In this document: positions 16,563-64,000 of the stretch, one piece after another | How the letters are laid out: each line of letters starts with the position of its first letter | Position numbering within the stretch: the stretch's first letter is position 1 | Assembly (NCBI GenBank): GCA_033439265.1 | Contig: JAVTVX010000010.1 | Span: forward strand, 22,619,056 to 22,683,055 | Source of the DNA: Dillenia suffruticosa | Taxonomy: Eukaryota; Streptophyta; Magnoliopsida; Dilleniales; Dilleniaceae | Direction of reading: 5' to 3' | Length of the DNA stretch: 64,000 bases | Translations under genes and position numbers: made by a program | The notes under the pieces: generated by a model | Seen by the model: the letters and a program-made list of their open reading frames with translations, nothing else | Database searches by the model: none | Told to the model about the DNA's origin: nothing

Positions 16563-17114
16563 TACACTATCTTAATTATACATCTCGGATTTAAATTTTA
16601 AAAATAAAAAAAATGAGATTTGAAAAAGTCAATCTTTTAATAGATCTTATAGTACTCGAATCAGATTAAACAAATAAAATTCGAATACTAATAATGAAAA
16701 CCATAAAGAGAAATGGGCCAAGTCGGGTAACATCCGGACTTGTTGAGGATTGGAAATACAAATACAAATGCATATATTGGTAATGGGCGGAAAGAATACT
16801 AAATTTTTTAATCAAAATTTTAGTTTAAATTTTAAAGATAAAAAAATTATGTTGAGAGAGTTATTCTCAATAAATGGATATGATAATAGTTTAAATTGAA
16901 TTAATCAAGAGTATTGGGGAAAGAAAAAAAGGTAACTGTTTCGAGGTTAAATTGGATGGTTGTTTTCTTACTTTTGTAGCAAAGAGGGAAAGGAACAGTT
17001 ACTTTATAGCAAAAGGTGGGGGCATTGTCGTCGCGAGGTCTCCAATTATTCGAACAAATCTTGGGTTTATCTGGGAGCAGCCCAACGCATTGTCATCACA
17101 TGCAATAATATGGA

Positions 17115-17315
17115 ACCACCGTCTCTAATTTTTTTTTTTTTTTTATCGTCGACGTTTAGATTTTATTCGATTAATTCGATTTGAATACGATAAAATCTAT
17201 TTTTAGAATTGATTCTCTTAAATCCTTTTTTACTATTCTTAGAATTTAAATTCAAGATCTCTAATTAAAGGTGTAAAATGTTCGATCATTCAACCCAAAA
17301 AATTTGATATCTCTG
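17115..17315 (-). repeat. SINE, same family as 17820-18011
   Basis: A poly(T) run at 17129-17143 marks the tail in minus orientation. The head at the right end, read on the minus strand, resembles the SINE at 17820-18011 (a CAAATTTTTTGGGTTGA-like start and a CTTGAATTTAAATTC stretch near box B). It has diverged from that copy. Confidence 0.6.
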
Positions 17316-17819
17316 ACTTTAATTTGATTCAAAGGCATGGCCAGACCCGATGGATCCAAGTGTAAATTAGAATTCTATTTTTCCAAACTTATAATCCAAA
17401 CTTACTATGTGAACGTTGAAGAAGTATTTTCAATTGTAATTTCTCTCTTCTAAGAAATTTTCAGGCTATAAACAAATCAATAAAAAAAAAAAGCATGCAA
17501 TTCGATTCTAAAAGGGTATTATTCTAATTTTCAAAAAGCTTAAGAAATTATAATTTAAGAGTCACTTTTTTATTTTAATCTTGAAATTAGTTAAAACACC
17601 AGAAGTCCATTTAGAGATATCAGAGACGGTGAAACTCACACAGTCCCTGCAGGATACCGCAAATGGCATAAAAAAAAAAATGGGAGAGGTTCTACAAATG
17701 CGTGGATGAGAGTACAAACTTTGTCCTAATCAAGACGTTAAGAGACATAAAAAGTCAAAAAACATGGATTATCTCTCCTTTTTTATCAAGAAAGAGATTG
17801 TTCCCTTTGGGCTTCTTGT

Positions 17820-18011
17820 GTATTTTTTTTTTTTTTTAGTTTTTATTATCGGTATTCGGGTTTTACCCGAATAATCTGATTCGAGTACTGTAATATCCAT
17901 TTTTAGTGTTGATTTTCCTAAATTCTTTTTTGCTATTTCCAATTCTCAAACTCAAGATTTCTGATTAGCGAGTAGAGTGATCCTCCACTCAACTTAAAAA
18001 AGTTTGGTGCC
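17820..18011 (-). mobile_element. 192-bp SINE inserted in the UGT pseudogene
   Basis: Flanked by an 11-bp direct repeat with one mismatch (GGGCTTCTTGT at 17809-17819, GGGCCTCTTGT at 18012-18022). The duplicate pseudogene at 45990-46010 lacks the insert, which gives an empty site. On the minus strand it has a tRNA-like head (box A-like AAGTTGAGTGG) and ends in poly(A), seen as poly(T) at 17822-17836. Confidence 0.8.
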
Positions 18012-18255
18012 GGGCCTCTTGTTCAAGAACCTCCATGCAAACAAGAGGATATTGTGATCATTGATTGGCTAAACAAGAAGGAACCTTCCTCTACGGTGTT
18101 TGTGTCCTTTGGAAGCGAGTATTTTCTCACCACGGAAGAGAAAGAAGAAATTGCTCATGGGCTTGAGCTTAGCAATATTAATTTCACATACGTTCAGATT
18201 TCATGGGGATGAGAAGATTAGTGTCGAATTGGACTATCTAAACAGGATCGGAGAC

Positions 18256-18274
18256 TGCACAAAAAAAAAAAAGG
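18256..18274 (+). mobile_element. Poly(A)-only micro-insertion
   Basis: Nineteen bases containing twelve A's lie between two copies of AGGATCGGAGAC (18244-18255 and 18275-18286). The related pseudogene has a single AGATCGGAGAC without the insert. The structure fits a minimal LINE-driven insertion of a poly(A) end. Confidence 0.7.
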
Positions 18275-18357
18275 AGGATCGGAGACATAGGACTGATTCT
18301 GGAAGATTGGGCTCTACAGGCCCAGATTCTTTGGCATTCTAGCCTAGGTGGGTTTGT

Positions 18358-18447
18358 CCTTCTTTTTCGGGATACCGGGCTCGAACCGTGGCGGTCAGGC
18401 ACACTAAGATTCCTTCCCCAGTGTCACATTTGATGTTCGAGCTTGGG
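18358..18447 (-). mobile_element. 90-bp tRNA-like SINE with 18-bp target duplication
   Basis: A perfect 18-bp direct repeat, TAGCCTAGGTGGGTTTGT, flanks it (18340-18357 and 18448-18465). On the minus strand there is a box B match (GGTTCGAGCCC) and a short A-rich 3' end. The paralogous site near 46305-46325 is empty. Confidence 0.85.
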
Positions 18448-18796
18448 TAGCCTAGGTGGGTTTGTGAGTCACTGTGGTTGGACCTCATCACTAGATGGTA
18501 TTATTTTTGGGGTGCCATTTATAGCCATGCAACGAATCTTGATCAGCCGTGGAATGCCAGGTTGCTAGTGGAATGTGGGGTTCGCTTGGAAGTGAAGACA
18601 GATGAGGAATATAAGTTCAAGAGGGACGAGATAGGGAAGGTGACCAGACAAGTGGTGGCGGAAGGAGAGGAATTTAGAATGAATGCTAAGGAATTGAGTG
18701 CGACCACGATACAAAAAGGGGATGAAGAGTTGATGCTGCCATTGAGAAATTGATAGAGCTTGCCGGAGAATCAAACCCAATGGAAGTTCTCTTACT

Positions 18797-18890
18797 CTTT
18801 TTTTTTTTTATAAGGATTTGATCATAAAATCACTAGATTGAGAGCATTTATACCACTAAACTGTCATTCAGAAGAAAGTTTTTCAACTCA
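18797..18890 (-). repeat. Small SINE-like insertion
   Basis: Present here but absent from the paralogous position near 46660. On the minus strand it has a box A-like CAGTTTAGTGGTATAA and ends in poly(A), seen as poly(T) at 18799-18809. A related piece lies at about 47155-47225. Confidence 0.6.
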
Positions 18891-19763
18891 TTGTCTGACG
18901 CTTTTGTTCTCTTCCTTGATTTTGAGCATGAAAATCGAGAACAAGTGGAATAAGTGACTAGAGTGCTAGTGTCATATACATGTGGCAGCACCGGCAGTCT
19001 AGGGGTCCTGGCAAACGTAGAACTACCCGGAAACTTTTAAGTTCAATACGTATAATTTTAAAATTAAAACCTTAAAAATATTATTTGTACCTAAAAATTA
19101 TTATTTTTACTTCTTAAATTATAATTTCAAATATATATTATATTTTATTTATAATAAATAAATATAAATTTTTAATTTGAACCAACATTCGAGGTTATAA
19201 TATATAGCAACTGTCGATCGTCTTTCTTGGTGTTGTCTTCATCACCTAGAAATTGTTCCACGGAATCAACTACAGAAGGAATCTCTATTTTTTCTTGCCG
19301 GAAAAAAAAGGAGAATAATGCACAAAACCATCCAACAAAAATAAATAAATAAAAAACTTTTAGCTGCTAATGCTTGAAAAAGGAAAAACTACATCCACAC
19401 AACAAAAGTAAAATCCTTGTCATCCCATGTTACGTGATAAAAACAAAAACAATACCCAATTCATATAATTAATATTTATAAAATATTATGCATTAAAATT
19501 AAATTAATTATTGAAATAACAAATCAATAAATTTTAATATTTTTTATATTATTTTTTGTTTTTAATATAGTATTAAAGTTATATTCAAAATTTTTTTATC
19601 ACCATATTAGAGACGCCGTCAACTATGCGTATATCTCCAAAAAAACGAATGATCTGTTTTAAAAAATTATTCTTTAATATGCATCAATATATTATTTAGG
19701 GGGATTAAACCACCTATATTGTTTGGCGGAATTATGGCTCACCCATACTAAACCCCAACAGCC

Positions 19764-20709
19764 GAGACATGTTCCAAAATGATCCAAAAAAAAAAAAATT
19801 TTTTTTAAAATAACCCCAACTCAAAAAAATTTCCCCAAATAACCCCAATTTGTCGCTTTTTGGAGACGCGACATGTGTCGCGTCTCCAAGACGCGACAAC
19901 CCAAATTCCAGAGAGAGAGAGAGGGAGGGAGAGGAGTCCGCGGGGGGGGAAGGAGAGAGGGGAGGAGAGCGGCGGTGGAGGGAGGAGCGCTGCGGGGGGC
20001 GGCGGGGGGAAGGAGAGAGAGGGGATGACCGCGGCGGGGTGCGGAGGGGGGAGGGAGGGAGAGAGAGAGGGGAGAGGGCCACGGAGGGGGGAGGAGAGAG
20101 AGAGAGGGAGGGCCGCGGGGGGCGGAGGGGGAGGAGAGAGAAAGCGGAGGCCGCGGGGGGCGGAGGGAGAGGAGAGAGACAGCGGAGGGGGGAGGGAGAG
20201 AGAGAGGGAGGGCCGCGGGGGCCGGAGGGGGGAGGGAGGGCCGCGGGGGGGCGGAGGGCCGCGGGGGGCGCCCCCTCCGCCCCCCCGCGGCCCTCCCTCT
20301 CTCTCTCCCTCCCCCCTCCGCTGTGTCTCTCTCCTCCTCCTCCGCCCCCCGCGGCCCTCCCTCTCTCTCTCCCTCCCCCTCCGCGGCCCTCTCCCCTCTC
20401 TCTCCCTCCCTCCCCCCCTCCGCACCCCGCCGCGGTCCTCCCCTCCGCCGCCCCCCGCCGCGCTCCTCCCTCCCCCGCCGCTCTCCTCCCCTCTCCTCCC
20501 TCCCATCCCCCCGGTGGACTCCTCTCCCTCCCCCCCACCTCTCTCTCTCTCTCTCTCTCTGGACTTTTGGGTTGTCGCATTTTGGAGACGCGACACAGTG
20601 TAGCGCATTTCCAAGACGCGACAAATTGGGGTTATTTGGGGAAATTCTTTTGGGTTGGGGTTATTTAAATTTTTTTTTTTTTATTTTAGGTGATTTTGAA
20701 ACATGTCTC
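19764..20709. mobile_element. GC-rich foldback element, Mutator-like (non-autonomous)
   Basis: A 946-bp palindrome between 10-bp direct repeats CCCAACAGCC (19754-19763 and 20710-20719). The ends read GAGACATGTT(C/T)CAAAAT on both strands. Inside lie AACCCC-type stretches, then CGCGAC hairpin motifs, then long arms of GA- and CGCGGGG-rich sequence that mirror as CT- and CCCCGCG-rich sequence about an axis near 20270. Long terminal inverted repeats with 9-11-bp target duplications are typical of Mutator-like elements. No transposase is present. The open frames inside are side effects of the biased composition. Confidence 0.75.
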
Positions 20710-20719
20710 CCCAACAGCC

Positions 20720-22300
20720 ATCAATTAAAGGTTATAGCCTAATTTAGGTTTTTTTTTGCGTCATTTGGGTCTACAAAAATGGGCGTTTGCTGGGCTCTCC
20801 AATAAAAGGGAAACTCAACACGACAACCACTATAGCTAATTTATTAAATATTATCATTATTAAAGCTACCTGTTATAAAAATTTTATTTTGAACTATAAT
20901 TTTTTTTTTTTAAAATCAATCCCACTAAACATGATATATTAGAAGGAATTATTTGGTTGGATGAGCATGTGTGATCCGTTCTTTCAGTAAAAATAATATA
21001 TTTTTTAACTTTATATTAAGATTATAATTTATTTTGTTTTATGTGAATGAGAATTAAGTAATTCTTTTCTCACAGGATAATTTAACTAATAATAGATAGT
21101 CACAAATTCCATTTTATTCAAAAACTTAAATCACCATGTGGAGCAAGCAATGCACTCCTTCCCTCCAATGGAAGAGCTACCCAGTCCGTGTCTGTCAACA
21201 TTTCATAGCCAAGTCCATTATGTGGGGAATATTATTGTGTTTATCTTTTGGTTCTAGTTTGATTTTCCTTTAATGTGATAGGATAGAGACAAAAAAATTT
21301 GAATTTCCAACTTTCTCATACGGTTCTGCCATCGGTGGGCGTCTGTCCAAATGCCGTGGTCCAAAAGAGGGGATCACAAGAGAACCTTGCGCACACCACT
21401 GGCCAAGTAGGTGTTTCATAAGATTAAGAATGGAAGAACAAAAAATTCCAATGGCTCTGATGCCTTGAATGCATGAAAATGCCCCGCGACAAAAGGAGGA
21501 TATCGGGTCGGCATTAAGTTTTCAATTGAGCTAGCTCATATCACATGTTTTGGACAATTGAAATCTTGTGTTCTTGATATTTTGTATATGTTTTTTCAAT
21601 ACATCAATTTTATTCCTCTTTCCGATAATGGAAGTAAAAGAAAATCTTATATCTATTTATTAATCTGGGCAATTATTTCCATTGCACTTGTACTTTTTAC
21701 AGGCGAAGCCGTTGTGTCTTGTCATGTGCTAAACCTATTCCTTCAAGGACACAATTTGGGCGGCACCTGTAGAGAGAGATTTGACGAGTTGTCCCCTATG
21801 CCAGAATAAGACTGTAGTTTTGCCCACGGGATCACTTAATAGTAGGTTGAAAATTGAGTTTTGAGTTGCAATTGTCAAGCCTTTGACGAACCAAACCAAG
21901 TTTCCTTCCCAAGAATTTGCTCCTCCTTGAATTGCCTAGTATTAGGCTCCCTTTCTAAAGATTAGTGACCCCACGCCACTTTAAATGTCATATCAAGGTC
22001 ATCATTTTCGTTTAGGCTTATTAATGGGGCTAAAGACTTCTGGTACTTCAGATGAAACCTACTATTTCACAGTGGTCATAAAACTAGAGAGCTCCCAAAA
22101 AAAATACTACATCAGAATTAAGAATTCAAAAGAAGCTTCTTCCTATCTTGTTCCATCCCCTCACCAAACATCCAATTTAATATATCAAAAAATAAATAAT
22201 TAATCAAAGTTGCACGTGGCCTCCACTTGTTTCTCAAATTTTCTTATACATATTTTGTTGTGTGACAAAATGACCCCTACCATTTTGACCCTCTAGTGCT
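20720..22300. other. UGT upstream region, no gene seen
   Basis: No gene. The part 21600-22320 occurs again, inverted, at about 51845-52570. The part 21010-21170 occurs in the same direction at 49385-49545. Confidence 0.7.
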
Positions 22301-22306
22301 TTTTCC

Positions 22307-22314
22307 TATATATA
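22307..22314 (+). promoter_or_regulatory. TATA box of the UGT gene
   Basis: TATATATA lies 50 bases upstream of the UGT start codon in a CC...CCC setting. The same box is preserved in the inverted copy at 51845-51852. Confidence 0.7.
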
Positions 22315-22364
22315 CCCACAATCTCGAACCAAACTAAAGAAGAGAGTAAGGAGAAAGAAAATCC

Positions 22365-23738
22365 ATGGAGACCAAGCAGCGGAGAACTAGTATACTCATG
22401 TTACCATGGTTGGCTCATGGTCACATCTCTCCTTTCCTAGAGCTAGCCAAGAGACTTGCACAGAGAAACTTTCTCATATACTTTTGTTCATCCCCAGTCA
22501 ATCTAAATCCCATCAGAGAAACCGTTCCAAGCAAATTCACATCCTCAATTCATCTCGTAGAAATCCATCTTCCTTCGTTTCCGCAACTCCCTCCACGCTA
22601 CCACACCACAAAAGACCTCCCACCACATCTCATGCCAACTCTCAAAGCTGCCTTTGACCAGTCAAAGCCTTCATTTGATCACATCCTTATAACTCTCAAA
22701 CCCAACTTAATAATATATGATTTCCTACAACCGTGGGCACCGCAAGCGGCTTTAGCACAAAAAATAAATTCTCTTCTTTTCTTCGTCAGTGGTGCAGCTT
22801 GCTCTTCCTTCCTTTATCACATAATCAAGAATCCAACCACAGAATTCCCTTTTCCGGCACTAAATTTGCCGGATTCTGAATACAATAAACTTACCCAGTT
22901 CTTGCATATCCCTGCAAATGGTCTCACAGATTGGGAGAGGTTTCTCACATGCATGGGTGAGAGTACAAACTTCGTCCTAATCAAGACATCAAAGGAAATA
23001 GAAGCCAAGTATATTGATTATCTCTCTTCTTTGAGTAATAAAGAGATTGTTCCTGTTGGGCCTCTTGTACAGGACCCATCAAGCAAACACGATGATGAAA
23101 AGATCATTGATTGGCTAAACAAGAAGGGACCTTCCTCTACAGTGTATGTGTCATTCGGAAGTGAGTATTTCCTCACCAAGGAAGAGAGAGAAGAAATTGC
23201 TTATGGGCTTGAGCTTAGCAATGTTAATTTCATATGGGTCGTTAGATTTCATGGAGATGAGAGAATTAGTGTTGAAGAGGCCTTACCAGTGGGCTTCTTG
23301 AACAGGGTTGGTGACAGGGGATTGGTTGAAGAAGGTTGGGCTCCACAGGCCAAGATATTGGGCCACGTGGGCCTTGGTGGGTTTGTGAGCCACTGTGGTT
23401 GGAGCTCAACACTAGAGGGTATAACATTTGGCACACCAATTATAGCCATGCCCATGAATCTTGATCAACCATGGAATGCGAAGATGGCAGTGGAATGTGG
23501 TGTTGCTTTGGAAGTGAAAAGAGATCGAAATGGCAAATTTAGGAGGGAGGAGATTGCAAAGGTGATAAAGCAAGTGGTAATGGAGGAAGAAGGAGCGAGA
23601 ATTAGAAACAAAGCAAGGGAATTGAGTATGAGGATGAGACAAAAAGGGGATGAAGAAATTGAAGTTGCAGTAGAGAAATTGATGCAGCTTGCACCTGCAA
23701 CAGAACCAAATGCATTGAAAGTTCCCCAGTTGAACTAG
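22365..23738 (+). CDS. UGT94-like UDP-sugar glycosyltransferase (branch-forming type)
   Basis: Single-exon frame of 457 aa, the usual length for plant family-1 UGTs, which are cytosolic. It transfers a sugar from a UDP-sugar to a small molecule. The N-terminus (WLAHGHISPFLELAKRL) is characteristic of UGT94-type enzymes, which add a second sugar to an existing glycoside of flavonoids, crocetin, lignans or triterpenes. Catalytic His20 lies in the AHGH motif and the partner Asp is probably Asp119 in IIYDF. The 44-residue PSPG box runs from Trp325 (WAPQAKILGH) to Gln368, with HCGW at 343-346. A final Gln is commonly linked with UDP-glucose use. The start ATG lies in an ATCCATGGAG context just behind a TATA box. 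No break is seen. The acceptor cannot be read from the sequence. Confidence 0.93.
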   Translation: METKQRRTSILMLPWLAHGHISPFLELAKRLAQRNFLIYFCSSPVNLNPIRETVPSKFTSSIHLVEIHLPSFPQLPPRYHTTKDLPPHLMPTLKAAFDQSKPSFDHILITLKPNLIIYDFLQPWAPQAALAQKINSLLFFVSGAACSSFLYHIIKNPTTEFPFPALNLPDSEYNKLTQFLHIPANGLTDWERFLTCMGESTNFVLIKTSKEIEAKYIDYLSSLSNKEIVPVGPLVQDPSSKHDDEKIIDWLNKKGPSSTVYVSFGSEYFLTKEEREEIAYGLELSNVNFIWVVRFHGDERISVEEALPVGFLNRVGDRGLVEEGWAPQAKILGHVGLGGFVSHCGWSSTLEGITFGTPIIAMPMNLDQPWNAKMAVECGVALEVKRDRNGKFRREEIAKVIKQVVMEEEGARIRNKARELSMRMRQKGDEEIEVAVEKLMQLAPATEPNALKVPQLN

Positions 23739-25425
23739 CATGTCTTGTTGAACATAAATTGTGTGTTGCGCGGTTATGCGGAGCAACCATGAACCATTTC
23801 ATGGTGGTTTGTGCATGTCAGCGTAGAAACTGCTGGACATTAGGTAAAGATAGTGCCCGGCATGAGCCTGTAATGCACCATGTGGACACTACACGTAACC
23901 TATCGTGGAAATATATGAGCAATCATCAATTTTATTTTTATTTTGGCTTTTACTAGTGTGTTATATTGTGTACTAGCTAGACACCTGTCCATGAGTTGAG
24001 CAACTATATAAGCTATAAGATCTTTTTGAATTTTGATCCACTTGACGAGAATCCAGCACCCAAGTGGGGTAATGATAACGCGTGTTGAATTATGGTTGCC
24101 AGGTGAAATTTTCAGTAACAATTAATAATTTTTGTTTTTGTATAAAAAAATTAAATTTTATTTTCAAATTTTTAATATTTTATTAATTTTTAATTTAATC
24201 AACATATATAACCAATAAAATAAAATAAATGCCAATAGAAGAGACCAGAAAATGGATCTGAATAACTCTTTGTTGTCCCATTTGCAGCAATGCCAGAGGA
24301 GGGATTGCTTCGTTTTTTCTCCATTTACCTTCTCTTTTGCTAGCAAACGTACAATTACCATCTGGCAAGCTTAAACAAATTCATTAGATACAAATAAAAC
24401 TCTTCATTTAAGAAAAATTCCTTTAAATGTCTTCTTTAATAATCTTTTTGTATATAATAACAATAACTCCAATTAAGTATCATGAGTAAAAACATGGACC
24501 CTCATGGGCGTTATCGAGGTGGTGGGTTTAGTTGGGATAAATAATCCTATATCAGTTAAATATAAATAAATTATTTTATATAAAATTATAAATTTTATTT
24601 TATTAAATGAAATAAAGGTGTACAAGGAGAGGATCATTGATGATCAGTTGGAGTAATGACATGCCATGTTAAATTCTTTAATTAAGGTGTTTTGAGTATG
24701 ACTATATTAAGAGAATAGCTCATTTATATGAATAACTGTAAATATTAAATTAAATTAATCAAAATATAAATTTTAAATATCGATTGGTATAATATTAAAA
24801 AAAAAAAAAAAAAAAACCGCCGGATGGACACGGTAATCGCGGGCCATGTACGTCGGTTAACCGCTGCGTGGCACGTCTTCTAGATTTCGCCGCTCTTCTG
24901 CCCGATGCTGCATTTTGCCTTTGCGTCTGGCACACGTTCTCTCCGTCTTTCTCTCTTCGGGGAAACGTGCAAAGATGAATTTATTATGTAAATCTCTTCC
25001 GATTTTTCTTTCTTTGCGTAAATTAATTTTTTGATTCTTTAGATTTGCTTTTCTATTTGATCATAATTAATTAAATTTTGAGGATGAATATTGTCTGTTG
25101 CAATCTGAACACAACAATCTAGGGTTTAGTCCTTAAAAGAAGCGCCTACTAGTTACACCCATCCTCCAACCCTCGTTGTAAAAAAGAAAAAAAAGAAATC
25201 TAGGGTTTCGTCTATATAGACACACTCAATTCGGTATCGGAGTCCAGCAAAAAATTAATAATAATAATAATAAAGGAAAAGAAAAAACATTGAAACTAAT
25301 GTGTGAAAATTAAAAAGAAGAGACTGAAATTTATTAACTTTACCGATCTTTCATGGTATATCTGTTTCCTTCTCAAAGAAAATGCTATTTCTATGATAGT
25401 TTTATTGAACTTTGTTTGTATGAAT
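23739..25425. other. Intergenic DNA downstream of UGT
   Basis: No gene seen. A SINE-like 3' end with a 21-base A tract ends at about 24818, and ATA repeats occur near 25256-25274. This whole stretch, with the UGT coding region, is missing from copy 2. Confidence 0.6.
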
Positions 25426-25429
25426 CCGT

Positions 25430-25535
25430 ATAGACATTTGGGTGGAGTGGTCGGGGATTCCTATCCTCACTTGTTTAGGAGTTCAAGTCCCATAAACCCC
25501 CTTCTCGCTTTATGCAGCAAAATAAATAAATAAAA
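25430..25535 (+). repeat. Short tRNA-derived SINE
   Basis: A tRNA-like head has box A-like TGGGTGGAGTGG and box B-like AGTTCAAGTCCC, and it ends in an A-rich AAATAAATAAATAAAAA tail. The inverted copy at about 51730-51835 carries the same element, so it predates the block duplication. Confidence 0.6.
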
Positions 25536-26130
25536 AGTTACTAATTCATTGCATTATTGGAGCTGTGCCTTTGAAGATCATTCTTTTCTCTTAGAAGCTT
25601 CTCAACATTCATAACTTAATGCTGTGAATGGACCCAGGATTTAGGTAATCCGCTCCATCAGAATATTTTCCCCCAGAAGGTCTTGAGAACTTCTGTCCTT
25701 TAATTTGAACACAAGAAGAATCAAAAAGACCAAAACATGGTTTTAAGTCTGAGGTCTTTACAGTCCAACATATCTTTTGGGATATGTTCCTCCTACATTA
25801 GAAGACGTTCTTGGAGTGTATGAAAAAAGACAGTGAAATACATTTGTAAAATGAATCAAAATGTTCAACCAAGTACAACCATGATGATTTTTATCTGGCA
25901 CAATGGAGATCCCTGCTGCATCTTGTTTACTAAGAATGTCTTAGTGCTAAGAATTGGTGCTCTTGCTCAATTCCTCGAGCTTCTTCATCCTCAATTTCTC
26001 GCTTTCACTGACCAGCTGCATATTGATTAGGAGTAACGGACAAGAAATGTTGAAGGGTTAGACATCAGATTTTGCCACAGTTTTTACTCATTTGATTGAA
26101 AATTCTATGGTCATGGAGTTCAATTATTCA

Positions 26131-26544
26131 CCTCCACTAACTTCGTAATTAGTTGAGCCTTTTCTCGGTTTTTCTCATTTGCCACAGTTTTTAGTCTTAT
26201 TGTTAACTGTCAATGGCTTAATGATGAACGAAATTTTGCATGAAATAGATTAATATGGATGTGGTATGAAGTTATTTTTAAAACATTTTTACTTCTCGGA
26301 TCTTAGCCAAGCGCTTAGTTTCCTCTTCGACTCGACCCAACTGAGCTTGGACTTTCTCCTTCGCCTTGGTCTTCTTCCTCTCAATCTCTTCTTCCTTTGC
26401 TCAAAAAGCGGTCAGAGCTGATTTTGAGATATCTTCATCTCCTTCATCTTTTAGTGGGCTGACGTTGTAACTGATGGTTGCTGAATTCTTCGTCCGCTGC
26501 ATCAGAGGATTTTGTGACTCCCATGATTGTCTCTGTGCTGCCAT
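26131..26544 (-). pseudogene. RAB6-interacting golgin (DUF662) remnant, exon 1 side
   Basis: On the minus strand, from the ATG at 26542-26544, the sequence reads MAAQRQSWESQNPLMQRTKN, then KDEGDEDISKSALTAF, then AKEEEIERKKTKAKEKVQAQ and GRVEEETKRLAKIRE. That is the N-terminal coiled-coil of the plant DUF662 family, a small golgin-like protein of about 170-180 aa. A TGA at 26401-26403 (probably from CGA) interrupts the frame after ALTAF. A donor follows at IRE|GTAAAA. The middle exons are missing. Only the EKAQL...LVE end of a later exon remains at about 26131-26172. The deleted middle survives in the inverted copy at 50735-51172. Converges with the UGT gene. Confidence 0.85.
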
Positions 26545-26659
26545 AGTGTCATAAAAGCCTATCTCTCTTCCTCGTAGTATCTCTCTCTTTTTTCTTTCTT
26601 TATCTTTTGCTTTGGTATGACGGTCCTCTTTCTTTGTGTTGGTGCTTACAGACAAGAAT

Positions 26660-28225: not shown

Positions 28226-28227
28226 GA

Positions 28228-28417: not shown

Positions 28418-28420
<3 letters not shown>

Positions 28421-52606: not shown

Positions 52607-54199
52607 TTCTTTTTTTGGGAGAAGAGAAACAGACCAACCCAAACATAAGCCCAGCAAGCCCAAGGGCCAGACCAGACAGACTAATCTAAAGACACAGGCC
52701 TAACACTAATGATTCTTCTGTCTTCCTCGCTAGCTAAGTCATTCTTTAAAAGAGAGTGAAGAGATCTGGGAGGGGTCTCTAATAAGGACAGACGTTGAGC
52801 ATTGTTCTTTCCCAGACCCACAAGGTGATCGGCGCACATGTCTGCTTCTCTATAGATATGCTTGACGTCAGTAGTCTTCAGGTCTCTCATAAGCATTTTG
52901 CAGTCCATTAGAGCATGACAAAGGGGGTGAGTAGAACAGTTATCTTTTTTCAATAAGTGAGATATCTCCAGGCAGTCGACTACAACTTCTACCCCAACAA
53001 AGCCTCTATTTTTAGCTATCTCTGGACCTTCTCTTAAAGCCCAAATTTCCGCAAAAGTGGCATCTACTTTGCCTATATTCATAGTGAAGCCTACAATCCA
53101 ATTACCCTCCTCATTTCGGATGATGCCACCGCCACCAACCCTTCCACAAACTGTATCTACTGCCCCGTCTGTATTTAATTTAAAGTTCCCACTCTCTAGC
53201 CAATTCCATTTAGTATTTGACTTGTAGGATAGCTTCTGGTGTTTCACTGTCGCTTGAGTCTCTTGTCACACCAGGATGATTTTAGTAGTCAGTTTCGTCG
53301 TGCTCTTCGTGGGAGTTACTTCGCTATTCATAACCACTTTACACCTTCTCTTCCAAATACACCATATAGTCGCAGCAAATAAGCTACTTTCCTGAAGCAT
53401 CTCAGGATTGAAACCTCTCTGCGTACCTTTCTTAGTCCAATCAGCTGAGTTCCTGGTCCAGAAATCACCTAGCCTGCGCTGATATCAGGACAAACCCCAT
53501 TCCATATATCTCTCGCCTCCTTGCAGTCCCTCAGGACATGCAGAACCGATTCCGCACTTTCTTTGCAGATTTCACACCTATCATCATTCGTGAATCTTCT
53601 CCTCTTCCTCTCCACATTTGTTATGATTTTTTCAATCATGGCTAACAAGATGAAGAACTTAACTTTCTCGGGATAACTAGTCCTCCAAAGCCACTTCCAG
53701 TTCCCACTGAAATGCTGCTGAGAAAGATTGGACTCCAGAAGCATCTTGTAAGCACTAGAGGCTAAGAAGATACCATCCTTGGTTTCAGCCCACCCCAACA
53801 AGACCTCAGTCCCTCCTCTCCTGGGAAGAGCAAGCCCTCTTACTTCCTGCACTTTTTCTTCACTAACCATAGCCCTCAACTCCTCAATCCTCCACTGACC
53901 CTCCCTATTTATGAAGTGGCTGACAGTTAGATTTTGATGGTTCCTGTCTAGAGGAATAATAGCATGATCTCTAAGGTTTTCCTTCCCCACCCAACTGTCT
54001 TTCCAAAAGTTTACACTTCTACCATTCCCCACCCTCCACATAGCCCCCATCTTAATGCACCCTCTGCACTTAAGGATGCCCCTCCAAGTATGAGAGCCTA
54101 ACATGTCCCCCTGTGCTCCAAGAAGCTCTCCCCGTTCAGGTATTTTCTCTTCATGACCTAACACTATAATGCTTGATCATTCTGAGTCAAACGCCACCC
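52607..54199 (-). mobile_element. 5'-truncated L1-type LINE
   Basis: Flanked by an 18-bp target duplication with one mismatch (CCAACTGGGGCAAACACT at 52589-52606, CCAACTGGGGGAAACACT at 54200-54217). The minus strand encodes a zf-RVT region (about 54164-53469) with the C-x2-C-x8-H-x4-C knuckle of CEICKESAESVLHVLRDC. It then encodes an RNase H domain (53247-52681) with LNTDGAV, AEIWALREG, VVVDC and YREADMCAD, which supply the four acidic residues. The frame is interrupted between the domains at about 53250-53468. The endonuclease and most of the reverse transcriptase are missing. A short A-rich 3' end is seen at 52609-52616 (as T). It is absent from copy 1. Confidence 0.9.
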
Positions 54200-54217
54200 C
54201 CAACTGGGGGAAACACT

Positions 54218-55242
54218 ACGAGCTCAATACATTACCAGGGCCACAAAAAAAAAAAAAGAAAAGAAAAAGAAAGGAGCATCACATGGGAGTTTGCATGCGC
54301 TTAGGTAGTAGGGACCAAAAAAAAAAAAAAAAAAAATTGTGCTTAGGTAGCCCAAAGCAGCACAGGAGGATCTTAAGAGTACAACTCCGAAGAGCTCTTA
54401 TTTGATCCAGTCCAGTAGTTGAAACAGAGTGCCAGGTTCTGCCCAGTTCATGAAAAATGATCGAAACCTGATCTCTTCCTTATGGGCTCAGAAGCCCATA
54501 TCCTTCTTTTTCATATTTATCTCTTTTCTTTTAATTATTTTTTATCATTCGTATCCAAAATTATAATCCGGTTAATCCAATTCGAATAATTACTATGACC
54601 CTATTTATGAATGACTATCTTAATATAATCTTTTTTATTTTTAATTTTTAGACCTAAAACTTAACTAAAAGATCTAACATCCCATACCATTACACGCCAT
54701 TTTCGTTTAATTATGTTTTAACTTTTAAAGTTTTTCCTTTGTGTTTTTTTAGTGGACTGTTTGGGAACGCATGCCCTTCCTGCGGCATGATGCATAGAGA
54801 TGGTAAAAGCTACCCATTAATCATAATTCATTCTTAAATTTAAAACGGAGTTCATGGGATCAATCATCTTTCCACTCACCCGGTTTAGAACACATAAATT
54901 CATCCTCTTCCTCCCTCTCTCTCCAACAAACCGATGTAAAGCAGAGTTAATCCAAATAACAATGTCTTGTTAATCCACTTCATAACATACAATTTTTTGG
55001 GGAAAAAAAGTTGCTATTAATTTTATGTTGATTGGTCATCTGTCACATGCGATGCCTGGGGAAATAAAGGGGCGAAGAGGGTGAAGTGGAAATTTCGATT
55101 ATTTAGTAATTACATCCTTTCCCAATCCTTATAAAAATAATAATAATAATAAGGAAACAAATCTTTGCAAACTATAGTAAATTAAGTTTTGAACGTTATT
55201 ATTATTTTTTATTTTTTGAGAATGAAGGTTATCATGTTTGAA
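54218..55242. other. Duplicated flank of ABCG copy 2
   Basis: No gene. Collinear with about 28100-29230. It includes two A tracts (54245-54257 and 54318-54336) and a SINE-like stretch in minus orientation near 54530-54720 that copy 1 lacks. Confidence 0.6.
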
Positions 55243-55901
55243 GCATGGTTATAAAAACCCGGACCGACCCGCCCGTGGACCGGGTCAACCCGTTCTGTAA
55301 ACGGGTCGGTTCACTAGATGGACCGCGCCATGCACCTGACCCGGTAAAACCCGCGGGTCGATGCGGGTTAACCGCTAAACCGTGTGACACGCGGTTGCGG
55401 GTCTCGTTTAAGGTTTAAAAGAAAAAAAAAAAAAAAAGATCACATTCTTAGGGTAAGCCGCGAAGCCCAATCTTATTGTTTGAGTATGGAAATCCCGCGA
55501 AGCCCAATCTTATTGTTTGAGTATGGAAATCCTTTTGTAATGTCCTCGAGGGACAGCCAGTGGTACAAACTCCATTATCGATCCAATTTCAAATTCTTGT
55601 AAAAAAAAAAAAGAAATCCTTTTGTAATACAATATCAAGATCATAATCCTTTTTTAAACCCATTTTAAATTTTAAAAAAATTTTAATTTAGGGATAAAAT
55701 TGAAAATATGAAAAAAAAATCACCTCAGTTGGCTTCTCTCTCCGAAAGAAGGCAGCACCGACGACAGAGGAACCTCAAAGAAGAAGAAACCATGAAAGAA
55801 GCTCCTCCGTGGGAGCCGGAGGAGGTCCACATATGGGGGATTCCGCTTCTGGGAGAACTTCTCGGAGCGAGAAGAGCGACAATCCAAAAGGTAAAGGAGA
55901 T

Positions 55902-55934
<33 letters not shown>

Positions 55935-56400
55935 GGAGAGGAGACCTTACCTTCTATTAAAAAAAAAAACAGAGAGACCTTATCTCCACCACGCGTTTTC
56001 AAGTTCCTTTAACTTTAAGCTCAATTTTTTTTATTTTTTTTTATTTTTTTGCTAAGTTGAACAAGAATTTTACTGTTTGACTTTGAAAGGCGACAACGGA
56101 CGCAAATAAATTTTTGCAGACTTAAAATTTTAGAAGATTGCTCCCTGTCCTGTCCTGGGATAATGTTCACATTTACATAATCTTCATTTTATGAGATATT
56201 AATTTTTATTATTTGGATATATTATGTTTCATAAATATTATAATTGATATTTCCTATTATAAAAAATATAATTATATATTTTTTATATTTTAAAATAATA
56301 AAAAAAATCAACAGTTAATTTAGTGATTCGAAAATTTAACCAGTTAAATCATAAATTTTAAAACATACGGATCAATATACGAATCGGATTTAATAATCAC
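55243..56400. mobile_element. hAT-like non-autonomous element
   Basis: An insertion of about 1.16 kb relative to copy 1 (empty site near 29225), between 8-bp direct repeats GTTTGAAG (about 55235-55242 and 56401-56408). The ends are imperfect inverted repeats: CATGGTTATAAAAACCCGG at left, and CCGTGATTATTAAATCCG read inward from the right. The CCCGGACCGACCCG-type start resembles a common plant hAT-like family. No transposase is seen. Inside are a 37-bp tandem duplication (55458-55531), a possible patellin fragment and a GA tract. Confidence 0.7.
55708..55900 (+). pseudogene. Possible patellin (SEC14-type) gene fragment captured by the hAT-like element
   Basis: The frame from 55708 includes APPWEPEEVHIWGIPLLGE. 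In patellins, a stretch close to PEEVSIWGIPLLGDERSD opens the CRAL-TRIO N region just before the lipid-binding SEC14 domain. After LLG the reading frame slips: a GAGCGAGAAGAGCGAC stretch could be the ERSD codons. It then runs into GA repeat. Patellins bind phosphoinositides at membranes and the cell plate. Only about 40 codons are present, with no SEC14 domain, so it is non-functional. The match is from memory of the motif. Confidence 0.5.
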
Positions 56401-56408
56401 GGTTTGAA

Positions 56409-56764
56409 GATCTTATATTGTGCACGTAAAACTTTGTATGATAGAAATGAAATTTTTTTCTTAAAGAAATCTTAAACCTAGAAAAAATTGATTTTTTTTT
56501 AAGTATATAAAAAGTTGACAAAATGGTAACTTGGAATTATTTTAACATATATTTAGTGATTTTCCCTGTTTTATAAAGTTAATATACACAAAGGGTTTCA
56601 TTGAATCTTTATATATATATTTTTTTTTCAAATTTACTATTATTAATTTTCTTTTAATAAGCAGTTAAAAAACTATTGTTAGCACAAGTTGGAGCCCAAA
56701 AAAGAAAAACAAGTTTGTATATCAATCCGATCAAATTATATACTTTATTCACCTTATTAAGAAA

Positions 56765-56795
<31 letters not shown>

Positions 56796-57100
56796 TATGG
56801 ATAAAATTGTAAAAATCAAATAAAAAGTTTTTATCTGAAATTTTAAAAAGAAAAACCCTCATAAAAATAAAAATAAAAATATTTTTCCAGTAATAAAAAG
56901 ATTTTTATTTTTTAAATGGGATTGTGCTTCGTTGTTTGTAAAGTTTGCATATAAATTGAGTAATAATTTTCAAAAAAAAAAAAAAAAAAAAAAACCAAAA
57001 TTCCAAACCGACCGATGGGCCATGGCATGACCCAAATGTAAGAGCCCATGGCATGCGGGACAAAACAAACCCATTTAAAGGAAGAGGTATCCTCGTTCTA
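56409..57100. other. Duplicated flank, no gene
   Basis: Collinear with about 29230-29925 in copy 1. It includes an AT microsatellite (56773-56798) and an A tract (56973-56994). Confidence 0.65.
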
Positions 57101-57119
57101 CAGCTTCCGTATCTGGAAA

Positions 57120-57133
57120 CCGTCTTCCCCTCT

Positions 57134-57171
<38 letters not shown>

Positions 57172-58247
57172 CCTTTCTCTCTCTAGATTCGTCACTTAAC
57201 AACACCATTGTATGTATACTGTTGTCTTAAGTTTTTTTTTCCCGTGACTCTCCCCTGACATAGTTGAACCTGGCACAGATTTAGGGATTTTTTTCATCTT
57301 TTCATTCTGTTGAATCTACTCCCACATCAGAGCTAGGGTCTTTTTATGATCAGTAATGTCCACTTGGCTAGGGTTTTAATCGTCTATTGTCTTTAGATTC
57401 CAACTTTTTGATCGATTTCTCAACCGAAGAGAGCAATGAATGATACAAGATTCAGAGAGGACAACCCTCAGATTCAAGAACCATCAAGTTCTCACAAGAT
57501 TCATGGATTCGCCTCTCTCTCTCTCCACTATCTCTGTTTCTTTTCTCTCTCTAGATTCGTCCCTTAACAACACCTATATATATACTGTTGTCTTCTGTTA
57601 TTGCTTCCCGTGACTCTCCCCTGACATAGTTGAACGTTGCACAGATTTAGGGCTTTTTACATCTTTTCATTCTGTTGAATCTACTCCCATATCGGAGTTA
57701 GGGTCTTCTCAATAATGTCTACTGGGCTAGGGTTTTAATCGTCTATTGTCTTCAGATTCCAACTTTTTGATCGATTTCTCAACCGAAGAGAGCAATGAAT
57801 GATACAAGATTCACGGGGAAAACCCCCCAGATTCAAGAACCATCAAGTTCTCACAAGATTCATGGATTCGTCTCTCTCTCTCTCTCTCTGCACTTTCTCT
57901 GTTTCTTTTCTCTCGAGATTCGTCCCTTAACAACACCAATATATATATATACTGTTGTCCTCTGTTGTTGCTTCCCGTTACTATCCCCAGACATAGTTGA
58001 ACATTGCACATGCTTAGGGCTTTTTTACATCTTTTCATTCTCTTGAATCTACTTCCACGTCAGAGTAAGGGGTTTTTTTTTTTATAATCAGAAATGTCCA
58101 CTGAGCTAGGGTTTTAATCTCTATTGTCTTCAGATTCCAACTTTTTGATCGATTTCTCAACTGAGGATAGCAATGAATGATGCAAGATTCAGAGAGGAAA
58201 ACCCCCGGATTCAAGAACCATCAAGTTCTCACAAGATTCATGGATTC

Positions 58248-58288
<41 letters not shown>

Positions 58289-58640
58289 CTTTCTCTGTTT
58301 CTTTTTTCTCTCTAGATTCGTCCCTTAACAACACCAACATATATACTGTTGACTTGTGTTATTGCTTCCCGTGACTATCCCCTGACATAGTTGAACGTTG
58401 CACAGATTTAGGCCTTTTTTTTACATCTTTTCATTCTGTTGAATCTACTCCCACATCAGAGTTAGGGCTTTTTTATGATCAGTAATGTCCACCGGGCTAG
58501 GGTTTTAATCATCTGTTGTCTTCAGATTCCAACTTTTTGATCGATTTCGCAACCGAAGAGAGCAATGAAGGATACAAGATTCAGAGAGGAAAATCCCCAG
58601 ATTCAAGAACCATCAAACTCTAATCCTAAGGGCTTTTCGG
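57120..58640 (+). repeat. About 365-bp tandem repeat, four units
   Basis: The landmark TTCGTC(C/A)CTTAACAACACC occurs at about 57189, 57556, 57921 and 58317, with spacings of about 367, 365 and 396. The AGCAATGAA(T/G)GATRCAAGAT landmark recurs in step. Units carry variable CT tracts, TAGGGTTTTAATC and an ATG-led stretch starting MND. Copy 1 has only two units at 29930-30595. Confidence 0.9.
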
Positions 58641-58975
58641 AGTCTCTAAAGTAACCAGTTTGTCAGAACTTGACCGAATTCAATGAGGGTTTGATTCGGA
58701 GGAACACAAGTGTAGAAAATTACAGCATTCATATTGTTAAAGAGCTTTCTATCTATCGAACAGGAGTATAGCTCAATCGAGAACAGAAAGAATAAAAATA
58801 CTGTCTGATACAAAAGAAAAACCAAACCAAGCAAAACTACAGAGAGAGAGAGAGAGAGGATAAGATTTGAAAAGAAGAAGAGAGGGAGAGGAGAGAAAAG
58901 GGCAACAAGATTAACTATCTATACATTCCCCATCTGTCCTATGTATGAAAGCCCACACGTGAAAGTTGAGGGGTC

Positions 58976-61900
58976 TCATCTCCTTTGGAAGTTGAGGAAT
59001 TTGATGCCATAAGCAAAGACAAAGAAGAAGAGAAGCACCCAACCAAGATGAGCAATCACGACTGGGATGAGGAAATCATAATCAAAACCAAGGTTATTTT
59101 TTAGGAACTCATCTACTTGAATTTTTGACGACATGCCTGGAATCTCGAGGTCAGTCTTTTTGTCACCTATTTGAGATGTGAAAATACCATATATTGTCCA
59201 CGCAACTGGGGAAGCCCAGTAATACCACCTCCACCAAACAGGGATCATCTGCAAAATTGCACATGAAGCAATAATAAAAACTGAATGAATTTGTCATATA
59301 TTTATGTTATATTATGACCAACTGATGAAGCTTGAGATGACATACGGGTCTGGGGATGAGGAAACCAGAGAACAAGTTCCAGAAGCTCAAGAAGAAAGAC
59401 ATGACAATAGCAGCAATCCGATGGCCTGGTGTCAGCGCCACAACCATCATTCCATACATTGAGCAGTATGTGAAGCACATGAATATGAAGTAGTAGAAAT
59501 ACAAGAACTTGGTTACTGTCCAATCGTATCCAATCATGGAGTAAAGTAGAAGTGAATACACAAATGTCTGAATTGCAACATAAATTGTCTCAATTGCCAC
59601 CTGCAGAAAAAAAAAAAAAAAATTGTATCTAGTTTTAATGGATCAATAGATGTTCAGTGTAAACTTGAGTAATTCTAGAAACTTACCTGAGCAAATGCAT
59701 ATGGCATCTCCGAATACATTCCTGCTGCTCTTTCTCTGTAGAAGACGGTTCTCTCAACTGCTACAGTGGCTAGCACCGCAGAAGCATTGGCGGCTCCAAG
59801 GAAAAGCACAGCAGAATAAGTAGCTCCCAGAAGATTCATGAGGTCTTGTTGCTTGCGTCTGTAGACAAAATTAATTAGCAACTGCACATTCAAACTTGGT
59901 ACTCAGAAATCCAGGTAAGGTCGTAAATTTTTTGAATTCGTTTGACTTGCTGAAGACTCACATTTGATCTCCCTTGCCCCAAAAGATAACACCAAACATA
60001 ATGCCTATGATAGTGGTCATCAAAAATCTGATAGCATTGTGCTGAGGATTTCTCCAGTATGACCAGTGTTGCTTCCAGAAGCAAGCCTTACACTGAGTTA
60101 CAAAGGATTGAGAGTATTGGGTTGGGAAGTAAAGATCCTGGGAACCTGGTTGGGGACAACTGTGCTCTTTAATAAGCTCCTGGTTTCTCCTGAAGAACAA
60201 GAAGAGGATAAAGGGGGCAAGACTTGCACAAATACCCACAAAATTGATGAAATTGATGCAAAGTTCGCTTACTGATAGAGGGAGGAATTGGCATAAATTT
60301 CTGCAAGATCGATATCAAGTTGGGCCTCCACTTGAGGTGAACTAACTTCCAACATCCATGTAGCAGGATTATAACCATCTTTAATCTTGACGACACCTGG
60401 AATAGCCTGCAATAGATTTCTTATATCAGTTTGGGCTTAGACTTCAGAGATTTTAATCCTACCATTACCAAATGCCAGGAAATTATCTGAACCAAACTGA
60501 TGTTTCTATGTAATTACAGTGTCAGAAATTACCTCACATTATCTTTTGATTGGCAATTAGGTCGGGACTAAGAAGCAACACAAACTCACCTCGAAATACT
60601 CAACAAGCTTGTAAGAGTGGACACCTAATGGTCCAGCATAAATCACTTGCCCTCCTCTCTTCATCAACAGCAACTGCAACAGAAGTTACCGTTTCAGATC
60701 GAGTAAACAAAACAGACAAATTTATGTTTAAGAAAGCAGAACCTGGGTTATACCTCGTCAAAGGCTTCAAATATGTCAATACTTGGTTGATGAATTGTGC
60801 AGACAACAGTTCTTCCGGTATCAACAGTGTTTCTCACAGTTCGCATGACCATCGCAGCAGCTCTAGCATCAAGGCCTGATGTTGGCTCATCCATAAAGAT
60901 AATGGAGGGATTTGCGACCAACTCAACAGCTATTGTAAGTCGCTTTCTCTGCTCAGTTGAAAGGCCATCCACTCCTGGCAATCCAACTAGAGCATTTCTC
61001 AGAGGCTTAAGCTCAATCAGGTCCATGATTTCATCGACAAACATCTGCAGAAAAAGAGAGGAACAAAGAACATTGAACCATGGAAATTTCTCAGAATTGT
61101 GAAACTATCAAGGAGTGAATAACTTACTATCCTTGTTTTCTTGTTCACGTCTGATGCCAGACGTAGCCAGGCAGAGTACAGAAGAGATTCATAAACAGTG
61201 ACACGTGGGGAATGGATATCGGTCTGCTCGCAATAACCACTGACCCGAGCAAAGGTTGTTTGATTCTTTGGATAACCAGAAATGCTAATAGTTCCTTCAA
61301 TGTAACCACCGGTCTTTCTTCCAGCTAAGACATCCATAAGGGTGGTCTTCCCCGCACCGCTAACACCCACCAGTGCTGTCAATATACCTGGCCTGAATGC
61401 CCCACTAACATCTCGCAATAGTTGCAGCCGATTCTCTTCAATTCCCTGATTCTTCATTTCCTGATGGTAAAATCAAAGTTCAAGTATTTCAAAGATCATG
61501 CCGAGTTGAAGACAAGTGTCGATTTAAGCCTCAGGAAATTACTTACCGCAGGCATATCCACATAGTAGTTCACATGGTTGAATGCCAGTGAAAGAGGCTT
61601 AAAGGGCAAAACCATTCCCCTTTTGGCCACGTTGTCTACAGCATTTGTAGTTGAGCTGGTGCTCTTCTGAGCATTTCTGACAGTCATATCGATACCTTCA
61701 CATTGGTAATGCATCATCAAATGATAAAGAGAACAACAATAACTTTGTAGCTAGTTTATCCTAGATCACCAAAGAACAAGATAATGCAAAAACAGGTCTA
61801 GGCAAAAGCATGGAAAAAACACCGACCTCCAGCACTGGATGGTAATCGAGATTTGGGCTTATCTTCAGAGTTGTCCTTCAAGATTACAGCTTTAGAATCA

Positions 61901-64000
61901 CCCAGAGCTGGTGCATTGTTATGAAAAAGATAAATAAATGATAAGTTAGAGATATTACTCACAGTAGCATAGTTAGAGTGGCATAGATACATAATAGAAT
62001 AGGACTCACGATTTAAGAATGTCAGCGCTAAAACAAAAAGAACATTGAAGAGCAGAGAAAACCCCGCGAGTGCACCAATGCAAATCCAGTACCAGTACTC
62101 GTCCACAAAGAGGCCTCTTTCTTTGAGAAGGGTCTTCCCAACTGTGGACTGTGATGAATTTGTCACCGGCTGTACCAATTCAACAGAACAACCAAAACTT
62201 AGAAAATTCACAACCTTTAGTATAATCGCTTCTTTTTTTATTTAATGATGCCTTACAGTGCTCCATCTCTTATCCAGAAACTCGTTGATGGCAATGGCAT
62301 TTTGTCCGTACATCATTGGAGAAACATAGTAGCCCCATATCATCCATGGTTTAATGTCATCTTAAAAGTAGGAAGGGCACAAATTATGGTGAGCCATATT
62401 CTTGGGTTTATGGAATTTTTAATGTCAAAACAACATTTTGAATCCTGACCTTTTGAGACAATGAAACCTCCGAGCACAAAAACCAACAGCAAGGTGAAGC
62501 TACCGAGAGGTTGTGCTAAAATTGGTGCTCTTGCAACTGCTGAAATGAATCGGAACAGCGAGAGGGCCACCTGATGCACACCAAATAGGGCTAGAAACTG
62601 ACGGAAAAACCTGAAAACGTTGTTCTCAAATATAAACCTATGTCCGTGGGACAAAGATCAATCCAATCTCTAGACAAAAATCAAAATCATGGTACATACC
62701 GACTGGCTGCGGGTGCAAAACCAATAGTATAATAGGCTAAAATGATCCAAATTCCCGATTCCAAAAATGAAATGGGAATTCTTAGCACCCAAATTGGCAA
62801 TCCATAAGCCCATGCAGGGTAGAACAAAAAATCCCGCTGCTTGAAGAACACAGGAAGCCTCAAAAGTGTCATGGCAAGCTCTGCCGTCCCATTGAACATC
62901 ACATTGATCAGAGTAAAAAAAAGTGCTCCCCAAAATTTTGCTCCATCTTCTAAATGTCCGGACTTCATTTGGGTTCTCAGAAAAACGGTTGAGGCAATTG
63001 TAGCCATGACCGTTATCTGGGTAGTCTTAAAAATGTACACAAAAGCGCTCCGCTTCATCAGTAACAATTCTCTTGCAAAACATGCTCTAAATAGTTCCCA
63101 ATTGGAAATTCCATACTTTTTAGTTACTAAAGCAGCCGGATGAACTGTGTTTCTGTCATATCGAAATCTCAAGTCTAATGAGAGCTGCTGGCCAATGTGA
63201 AAATAATTGAAAGCTTCCACAAACTGTGGGACCGATATGTAACTATAAGGCTCGTTCTCTTTGAACCAGTATTGCTCCTGGTCCTTCTTTGATGTCACCT
63301 CTTGAAGAAAGTCTGCAACACTTTTCCTTTCGGGACATTTGAATCCCATGTATTCAAAGAACTCAAGGACATTCTCACGTGGACCCTCGTACACAATCTG
63401 ACCCTCAGATAGCAATATAATATCATCAAAAAGATCAAATGTTTCGGGTGCAGGCTGCAGTAGAGAAATGACCATGGTCACATCCATTATATGAACCATT
63501 TGTCTCATGAACTTGACTATCTGAAAAGTAGTGGCACTGTCTAACCCAGTTGATATCTCATCCATAAATAGTGCTTTTGCTGGTCCAACCAACATCTCTC
63601 CTGCAATTCAAAACCAAAATTTAAATCAAACTATGGTAGAAATTGCTGCAGATCCCAGTTTGGTGAGTTCCCACGTACCTGTGGTCACGCGCTTCTTCTG
63701 TCCGCCAGAGATCCCTCTTCTCATCTCATTCCCCACCAGAACGTCAGCACAGATATCCAATCCAAGTATCTGTAATAGAATTTAAAGTTTTGTTTACCTT
63801 TTTCCTCAATCATGAATCTTAATTGATCAGTCAAATAGATAGAAGAACATGAATGAAACAGTAAAGATTAGGAATCTACAAACCTTGAGAACGTATTCAG
63901 TGACTAGACTTGTTTCCTGTCCTGCAACAGCTGTTGCTTTCATGAATGCGTCGATCTCAGGATCAGGTTTGATTCCAGTCTCTTTCTCTCTCCTAGACAA
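58976..64000 (-). CDS. Full-size ABCG/PDR transporter, copy 2 (5' end beyond the window)
   Basis: Tandem paralogue of the transporter at 30961-37385, in the same direction. Exons 5 (partial) to 20 fit without a break: 64000-63884, 63769-63679, 63600-62700, 62610-62450, 62360-62257, 62169-62010, 61907-61827, 61695-61547, 61460-61128, 61044-60754, 60673-60590, 60406-60273, 60189-59962, 59858-59687, 59600-59346, 59248-58976. All full exons match copy 1 in length except 61907-61827, which has one extra codon (Glu in NSEDKPK). Both Walker B boxes, the NBD2 Walker A and the LSTEQ signature are intact. In the large exon (62700-63600) I count about 18 differences in 298 residues from copy 1. Exons 1-4, with NBD1 Walker A, lie outside the window. 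Confidence 0.94.

Follow-up and report, generated by a model that had tools for sequence, protein, structure and literature searches.

A direct tandem segmental duplication of about 28 kb carrying UGT, golgin and ABCG sequences in Dillenia suffruticosa, and the differing decay of its copies

INTRODUCTION

Unequal crossing-over is a common origin of tandem duplicates. In Kochia scoparia, the tandem segmental repeats that carry EPSPS are reported to be several recent units per locus attributed mainly to a mobile element with unequal crossing-over, with short-homology joining proposed for one repeat type (PMC6808082). Here we describe a direct tandem segmental duplication of approximately 28 kb in Dillenia suffruticosa that carries UDP-glycosyltransferase (UGT), golgin and ABCG transporter sequences. 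It lies in a stretch of 64,000 nucleotides of contig JAVTVX010000010.1 (hereafter contig C10), and this whole stretch is called the window. As with the Kochia repeats (PMC6808082), the units are direct and tens of kb long, with an inversion and mobile elements nearby; unlike them, the Dillenia pair is old (synonymous substitutions per synonymous site, Ks, of 0.10), single and heavily decayed, with no mobile element found at its junction.

The transporter genes invite a second comparison, with the full-size PDR-type ABCG genes of plants. They are alike in having two nucleotide-binding and membrane halves, with no structural difference. What sets the present locus apart is that one tandem partner, ABCG-B, exhibits accelerated protein change.

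All positions below are in window numbering, where position 1 corresponds to position 22,619,056 of contig C10 and the end of the window to 22,683,055; coordinates that are negative or greater than 64,000 lie beyond the window. Homology within the locus was sought by self-BLAST of the window and of a 204-kb region enclosing it, in which pieces of at least 250 bp were listed, and relatives elsewhere were sought in the 596 Mb (37 contigs) of the genome.

RESULTS AND DISCUSSION

Two head-to-tail units and a single-copy relative

Self-BLAST revealed a direct chain of homologous pieces that pairs 16.94-44.84 kb with 45.37-70.31 kb. The two units, designated copy A and copy B (Table 1), are adjacent, arranged head to tail, and several kb and several genes long, as is characteristic of tandem duplication. 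Their best pieces (3,963 columns at 88.8% and 3,642 columns at 93.7%) are far above chance, and identity among all pieces ranges from about 73% to 94%, with its peak over the ABCG gene. Among pieces of 250 bp and more, no further unit was listed over 60 kb on the left side or 80 kb on the right, and no repeat of the left flank of A or the right flank of B was found within the 204 kb. These data confirm that the direct tandem duplication is real, and they support the proposal of a first-pass annotation that a duplicated segment of roughly 28 kb accounts for most of the right two thirds of the window. That annotation also held that landmarks recur in the same order at offsets of 28.0-28.5 kb. 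Their order and pairing hold, but the offsets span 25.1-28.4 kb (many pieces lie at 27.8-28.4 kb and others, where insertions or deletions intervene, at 25.1-27.2 kb), and the golgin segment of B is inverted.

A third copy, designated C, was located by genome searches with an ABCG exon (match at 14.50 Mb) and the golgin family (14.51 Mb). It lies at 14.49-14.53 Mb of C10 itself, in the opposite orientation to the window. When the 40 kb around C was read and compared with the window, it proved colinear, with pieces of the left flank of A (8.1-16.4 kb), one golgin-ABCG unit, and pieces of the right flank of B (70.5-73.5 kb); a second unit was not seen in these 40 kb. The related locus at C10:14.49-14.53 Mb shows the single-copy state expected if the pair arose by tandem duplication, and it polarises the changes that distinguish A from B. 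Its right edge is locally duplicated over about 1.8 kb (70% identity).

We infer that C is a homeologue derived from whole-genome duplication. Genes in the flanks agree with the colinearity of C and the window. For the AP2/ERF gene (6.6-7.5 kb), the closest relative, 84% alike at the amino acid level, is the one at C10:14,530,372. The neutral invertase gene to the right of B has relatives on contigs C34 and C16, plus a broken one at C10:14,477,469-14,478,075. This C-side invertase is interrupted by stops, and the copy to the right of B is open in the exon searched.

The junction and how it may have formed

The first-pass annotation placed the junction near 45.2 kb, and comparison with C moves the switch to 44,912/44,913. 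On its left, the window matches the right edge of C (14,491,471-14,491,233), the local duplicate of that edge ending at 14,493,790, and the end of B at 70,589. On its right, the window matches the left edge of C (14,520,709-14,520,619) at 93%. The sequence across the junction is continuous and free of gaps. The 88 bases to the right of it have just two matches in the genome, themselves and C, and therefore are not a dispersed repeat. When the surroundings of the breakpoints were compared with each other, similarity did not exceed the shuffle maximum in any of eight comparisons, and it fell below the 95% shuffle level in seven. No ancestral repeat longer than the 2-bp overlap, of the kind that homologous crossing-over would use, was found at the edges or the junction, within the limits set by the age of the event and the eroded left edge of A. 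Since the two sites joined here share no extended repeat, an origin by end joining or by replication-template switching is more probable than one by crossing-over between long repeats, and end joining appears to fit best.

Several observations weigh against this account of the junction. The most serious is that the left edge of A itself has been lost: the stretch at 16,381-16,678 has no match to B or C that rises above shuffles, and the breakpoint is consequently placed from C alone. The right breakpoint can be either 14,491,233 or 14,493,790 because the right edge of C is locally duplicated. The overlap of 2 bp could easily be chance, and one of the eight breakpoint comparisons does exceed its 95% shuffle level (39 versus 37). 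Finally, a dispersed repeat of about 180 bp occurs in direct orientation near both outer ends of the pair (17,129-17,309 and 70,307-70,489, 74% alike).

This last observation would also fit unequal crossing-over between repeats flanking the ancestral unit, a common route to tandem duplicates. However, each copy of the 180-bp repeat has no counterpart at the corresponding position in the other unit, and the two are therefore read as insertions later than the duplication. Moreover, the repeat is not at the junction, which switches straight between two unrelated sequences of C. We accordingly regard an origin by crossing-over as unlikely, and favour joining without an extended repeat.

Order and age of the events

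As proposed in the first-pass annotation, the event was dated from the Ks of the ABCG exons. Values were obtained by the NG86 method over 1,424 codons in 19 sampled and trimmed exons, a sample that leaves out at least one exon (near 33.9-34.1 kb). Ks is 0.103 between A and B (bootstrap range 0.085-0.127), 0.180 between A and C (0.146-0.213), and 0.194 between B and C (0.162-0.231), and the first range overlaps neither of the others. Because the A-B value is lower than the A-C value, the tandem event is younger than the split between A and C. The natural reading of these exon values would place it at a little over half the age of that split. In exon 7 (299 codons), Ks is 0.077 for A-B, 0.189 for A-C, and 0.140 between contigs C16 and C34, and all values between the groups on C10, C13 and C16/C34 are at least 2.3 and saturated. 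The pattern is read as a recent whole-genome duplication (separating A/B from C, and C16 from C34) superimposed on an ancient hexaploidy.

Alternatively, the tandem duplication might have preceded the A/C split, with later loss of one unit of C, or gene conversion might have lowered the apparent age of A and B. A short 5ʹ segment of ABCG, in which the A-B divergence (0.242) is not below that of A-C (0.209), the ratio of A-B to A-C/B-C divergence being 0.96, a corresponding ratio of 0.45 in the ABCG introns, and a support of just 0.883 for grouping A with B in the exon-7 tree would agree with such a history. Against this stand the disjoint bootstrap ranges, the 40 kb of C in which no second unit is seen, and a smaller A-B divergence in four segments, with ratios of 0.60 for the golgin 3ʹ segment, 0.66 for the 28.6-kb segment, 0.61 for the ABCG body as a whole and 0.64 for 38-39.4 kb. 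At the right end, where the proper C copy is ambiguous, the ratio is 0.33. Conversion between the ABCG genes was suspected from their 94% identity, as compared with 76-89% elsewhere, but a ratio of 0.60-0.66 in four segments within and outside ABCG suggests that conversion is not needed, although it may have contributed to the values in the introns, the short 5ʹ segment and the right end. An older duplication or a conversion-driven resemblance therefore seems quite improbable, and a tandem event after the A/C split is preferred.

The assembly gap

Copy B contains the only gap, a run of 200 N. A GA/GC-rich near-palindromic array, with long frames open on both strands, occupies 19,764-20,709 in A. 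Its counterpart in B consists of one arm and ends at the gap, which would fit a sequencing drop-out rather than a join between haplotypes. That the assembly placed two haplotypes of one locus in series is highly unlikely: a scaffold gap does lie in B, and our view of the genome comes from an assembly, but this gap is 3.6 kb inside B and joins consecutive, non-overlapping sequence at near-equal offsets to A (28,338 before it and 28,379 after), the A/B junction is gap-free, the Ks of 0.10, the inversion and several private insertions and deletions exceed ordinary allelic difference, the A-B Ks is over half of the Ks to C, and the outer flanks are unrepeated within 204 kb.

Unequal fates of the duplicated genes

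The ABCG genes of A, B and C retain an open frame, with no stops in the 1,424 sampled codons, and the sampled exons of the two tandem partners match as the first-pass annotation had stated. Two Walker A motifs occur in order in the joined sampled exons and are kept in both ABCG-A and ABCG-B. The order of nucleotide-binding domain (NBD) and transmembrane domain (TMD) is (NBD-TMD)x2: an ABC2_membrane match in exon 7 lies between the Walker A motifs and an ABC_tran match at the second, with the second membrane half recognized by reading rather than by Pfam. Among solved structures, exon 7 finds its best relatives in fungal CDR1/PDR chains.

The two partners differ in rate. Residues private to one gene number 62 in ABCG-B and 23 in ABCG-A (binomial p 2.8e-5), as compared with 44 and 37 private synonymous codons (p 0.51). 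By arithmetic from the same exon comparison, the ratio of nonsynonymous to synonymous divergence (Ka/Ks) comes to approximately 0.38 for the branch leading to B and 0.17 for that leading to A. ABCG-B thus appears to be less constrained than ABCG-A, though not free of constraint, and the asymmetry probably reflects a relaxed or shifted function of ABCG-B.

Two UGT pseudogenes, one in each unit, have the same 5ʹ limit, put by different alignments at about codon 163-175 of the intact UGT, which bears out the earlier observation that they are cut at the same point. They also share a 2-bp deletion, and these common lesions indicate that the pseudogene was dead before the duplication. A live-looking UGT, overlooked in the first-pass annotation, occurs in A only. 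Its uninterrupted frame carries the UDPGT domain (PF00201) at 61.7 bits against a cut-off of 19.5, as expected of a plant UDP-glycosyltransferase, and it has no match in the 40 kb of C (tblastn, E 0.01). Its nearest relatives, at 54-58% amino acid identity, number three on C34 (7.487-7.512 Mb) and one on C16 (18.874 Mb); a broken UGT is present on C16 at 18.850 Mb, and the UGTs of both contigs are close to ABCG and golgin matches. Because the three gene types are neighbours on C16 and C34 as well, the UGT is ancestral, its linkage to the other two is old, and where it is absent it has been lost. We also weighed, and rejected, the possibility that the live UGT entered A by a later insertion, given that its nearest relatives lie beside the same genes on C16 and C34 and that part of the stretch missing from B is present in C.

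The golgin sequences match PF04949, which we take to be a RAB6-interacting-golgin-like family (the Pfam name is Transcrip_act). The match spans positions 2-154 of the domain in four exons of C, 2-68 in A, and 68-133 in B, and the complete domain (about 154 positions) is found in neither A nor B. The first-pass annotation listed golgin in both copies, and family matches are present in each, but they comprise different exons and are complementary remnants rather than genes. With a missing stretch in A and, in B, an inverted piece that begins within exon 1 (Table 1), the two became remnants through independent damage.

Filled and empty sites can be compared between the units, as the first-pass annotation anticipated. 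For example, the insertion at 39.43-42.65 kb in A corresponds to an empty site in B. Mutator-like elements are recognized by long terminal inverted repeats and a 9-bp target duplication; the 9-mers flanking this insertion agree at seven of nine positions.

Table 1. Features of the tandem pair, in window numbering.
Feature	Position	Strand	Remarks
Copy A	16381..44912	+	Left edge eroded: homology to C stops at 16,380, homology to B starts at 16,679
UGT pseudogene of A	17600..18830	+	5ʹ truncated, frameshifted, later insertion of ~190 bp
Stretch of A (3.1 kb) that includes the intact UGT and has no counterpart in B	22318..25426	+	Part present in C
Intact UGT frame, 457 aa, A only	22365..23738	+	PF00201; tblastn; genome search; glycosyltransferases are the nearest solved chains
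Golgin (PF04949), first part, in A	26293..26490	-	Lacks stretch matching C 14,513,735-14,514,257 (exon 2, most of exon 3)
ABCG-A, full-size (PDR-type) ABC transporter gene	30964..37385	-	Exon alignment, Pfam, structure-chain relatives
Insertion in A, 3.2 kb, putatively Mutator-like	39429..42655	.	Inverted ends of ~290 bp; site empty in B, C aligns through
Junction	44701..45001	+	44,701-44,913 is C right edge; 44,912-45,001 is C left edge; overlap 2 bp, TG
Copy B, in-window part	44913..64000	+	Runs on to ~70,589, past window end
UGT pseudogene of B	45800..46660	+	5ʹ truncation and 2-bp deletion as in A
Assembly gap in B, 200 N	48480..48679	.	Directly after GA/GC-rich array
B segment inverted relative to A and C	50454..52573	-	BLAST against A and C
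Golgin (PF04949), middle exons, in B	50732..51163	+	Inside inverted segment; homology begins within exon 1
Degenerate LINE-type fragment in B	52684..54176	-	RVT_3 and zf-RVT domains
Array of 359-bp unit	57141..58616	+	B has ~3.9 copies, A about two (29,955-30,589)
ABCG-B, faster protein evolution	58979..64000	-	Extends to ~65,273, beyond window

Proposed history of the locus

We assign a probability of roughly 85% to a history in which a tandem duplication after the A/C split, with a junction formed without an extended shared repeat, was followed by differing decay of the copies. The ancestral 28-kb stretch held one live UGT and one dead UGT fragment, together with golgin and a gene for a full-size ABCG transporter. 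After separation from the homeologous copy C, this stretch was duplicated in direct tandem, and the new junction would have formed when two sites were joined by end joining or replication-template switching. Copy A then lost the middle of its golgin gene and gained the putative Mutator-like element. In copy B, the golgin segment was inverted and the golgin start lost, a LINE fragment gained, and the live UGT removed by a deletion of 3.1 kb. Copy C kept golgin and lost the UGT. Each copy has kept ABCG open where sampled, with ABCG-B changing fastest.

Surroundings of the pair and the arrangement of contig C10

To the left of the pair, pieces of a P450 gene lie at 1,208-3,255 with shifted frames, apparently a pseudogene. 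A metabolic gene cluster composed of this P450 (1.2-3.3 kb), the AP2/ERF gene, UGT and ABCG was considered but seems doubtful, given the shifted P450 frames and a gene order (UGT-golgin-ABCG-invertase) that looks like old synteny. Farther left, between -19,237 and about -100, are separate local duplicates with DUF247 genes, up to 95% alike. None of the three left-flank open reading frames tried matched a Pfam family, and Rfam gave no match at the gathering threshold.

On contig C10 (38.4 Mb), paralogue pairs of ERF, ABCG and invertase genes reside on opposite strands with coordinate sums near 37.2-37.9 Mb. In a test for mirror symmetry, for which the band of sums (36.9-37.9 Mb) was chosen after the data were seen, the 13 ERF matches listed for C10 (13 of 13) form nine opposite-strand pairs, some sharing a match; random draws gave a mean of 0.97, and none of 5,000 reached nine. 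Among 13 of 14 ABC matches (the one left out is another exon of a listed gene) there are three pairs, which is not significant (fraction 0.08).

The contig thus looks as if two homeologous chromosomes had been joined in mirror order, by fusion or by scaffolding. C10 appears similar to a published case in which two homeologous copies of one ancestral chromosome occur on a single chromosome. C10 differs from that case in that its pairs are in mirror order, with sums near 37.2 Mb, instead of head to tail; a mis-join during scaffolding is possible. The places listed in a search for telomere repeats are on contig C1 only. A separate search for close head-to-head telomere junctions found none, a result that is uninformative about a join bridged by a gap. 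It seems doubtful that C10 is a genuine mirror-image chromosome formed after whole-genome duplication, with the locus present three times on one chromosome, and that ABCG-B is in addition gaining a new function rather than decaying.

CONCLUDING REMARKS

The duplication described here is an ordinary type of event that can be read with unusual precision. The tandem pair, its single-copy homeologous locus, and the older paralogous blocks on C13, C16 and C34 together order most of the losses, the inversion and the insertions, and the site of joining is still legible at a Ks of 0.10. Landmarks in conserved order need not be conserved genes, as the golgin sequences of A and B, which are different remnants, make clear. 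Golgin and UGT, the passenger genes, each persist in a single copy, whereas the transporter gene remains in all three, with the protein of one tandem partner evolving faster, and the locus thereby offers a testable case of unequal fate after duplication.

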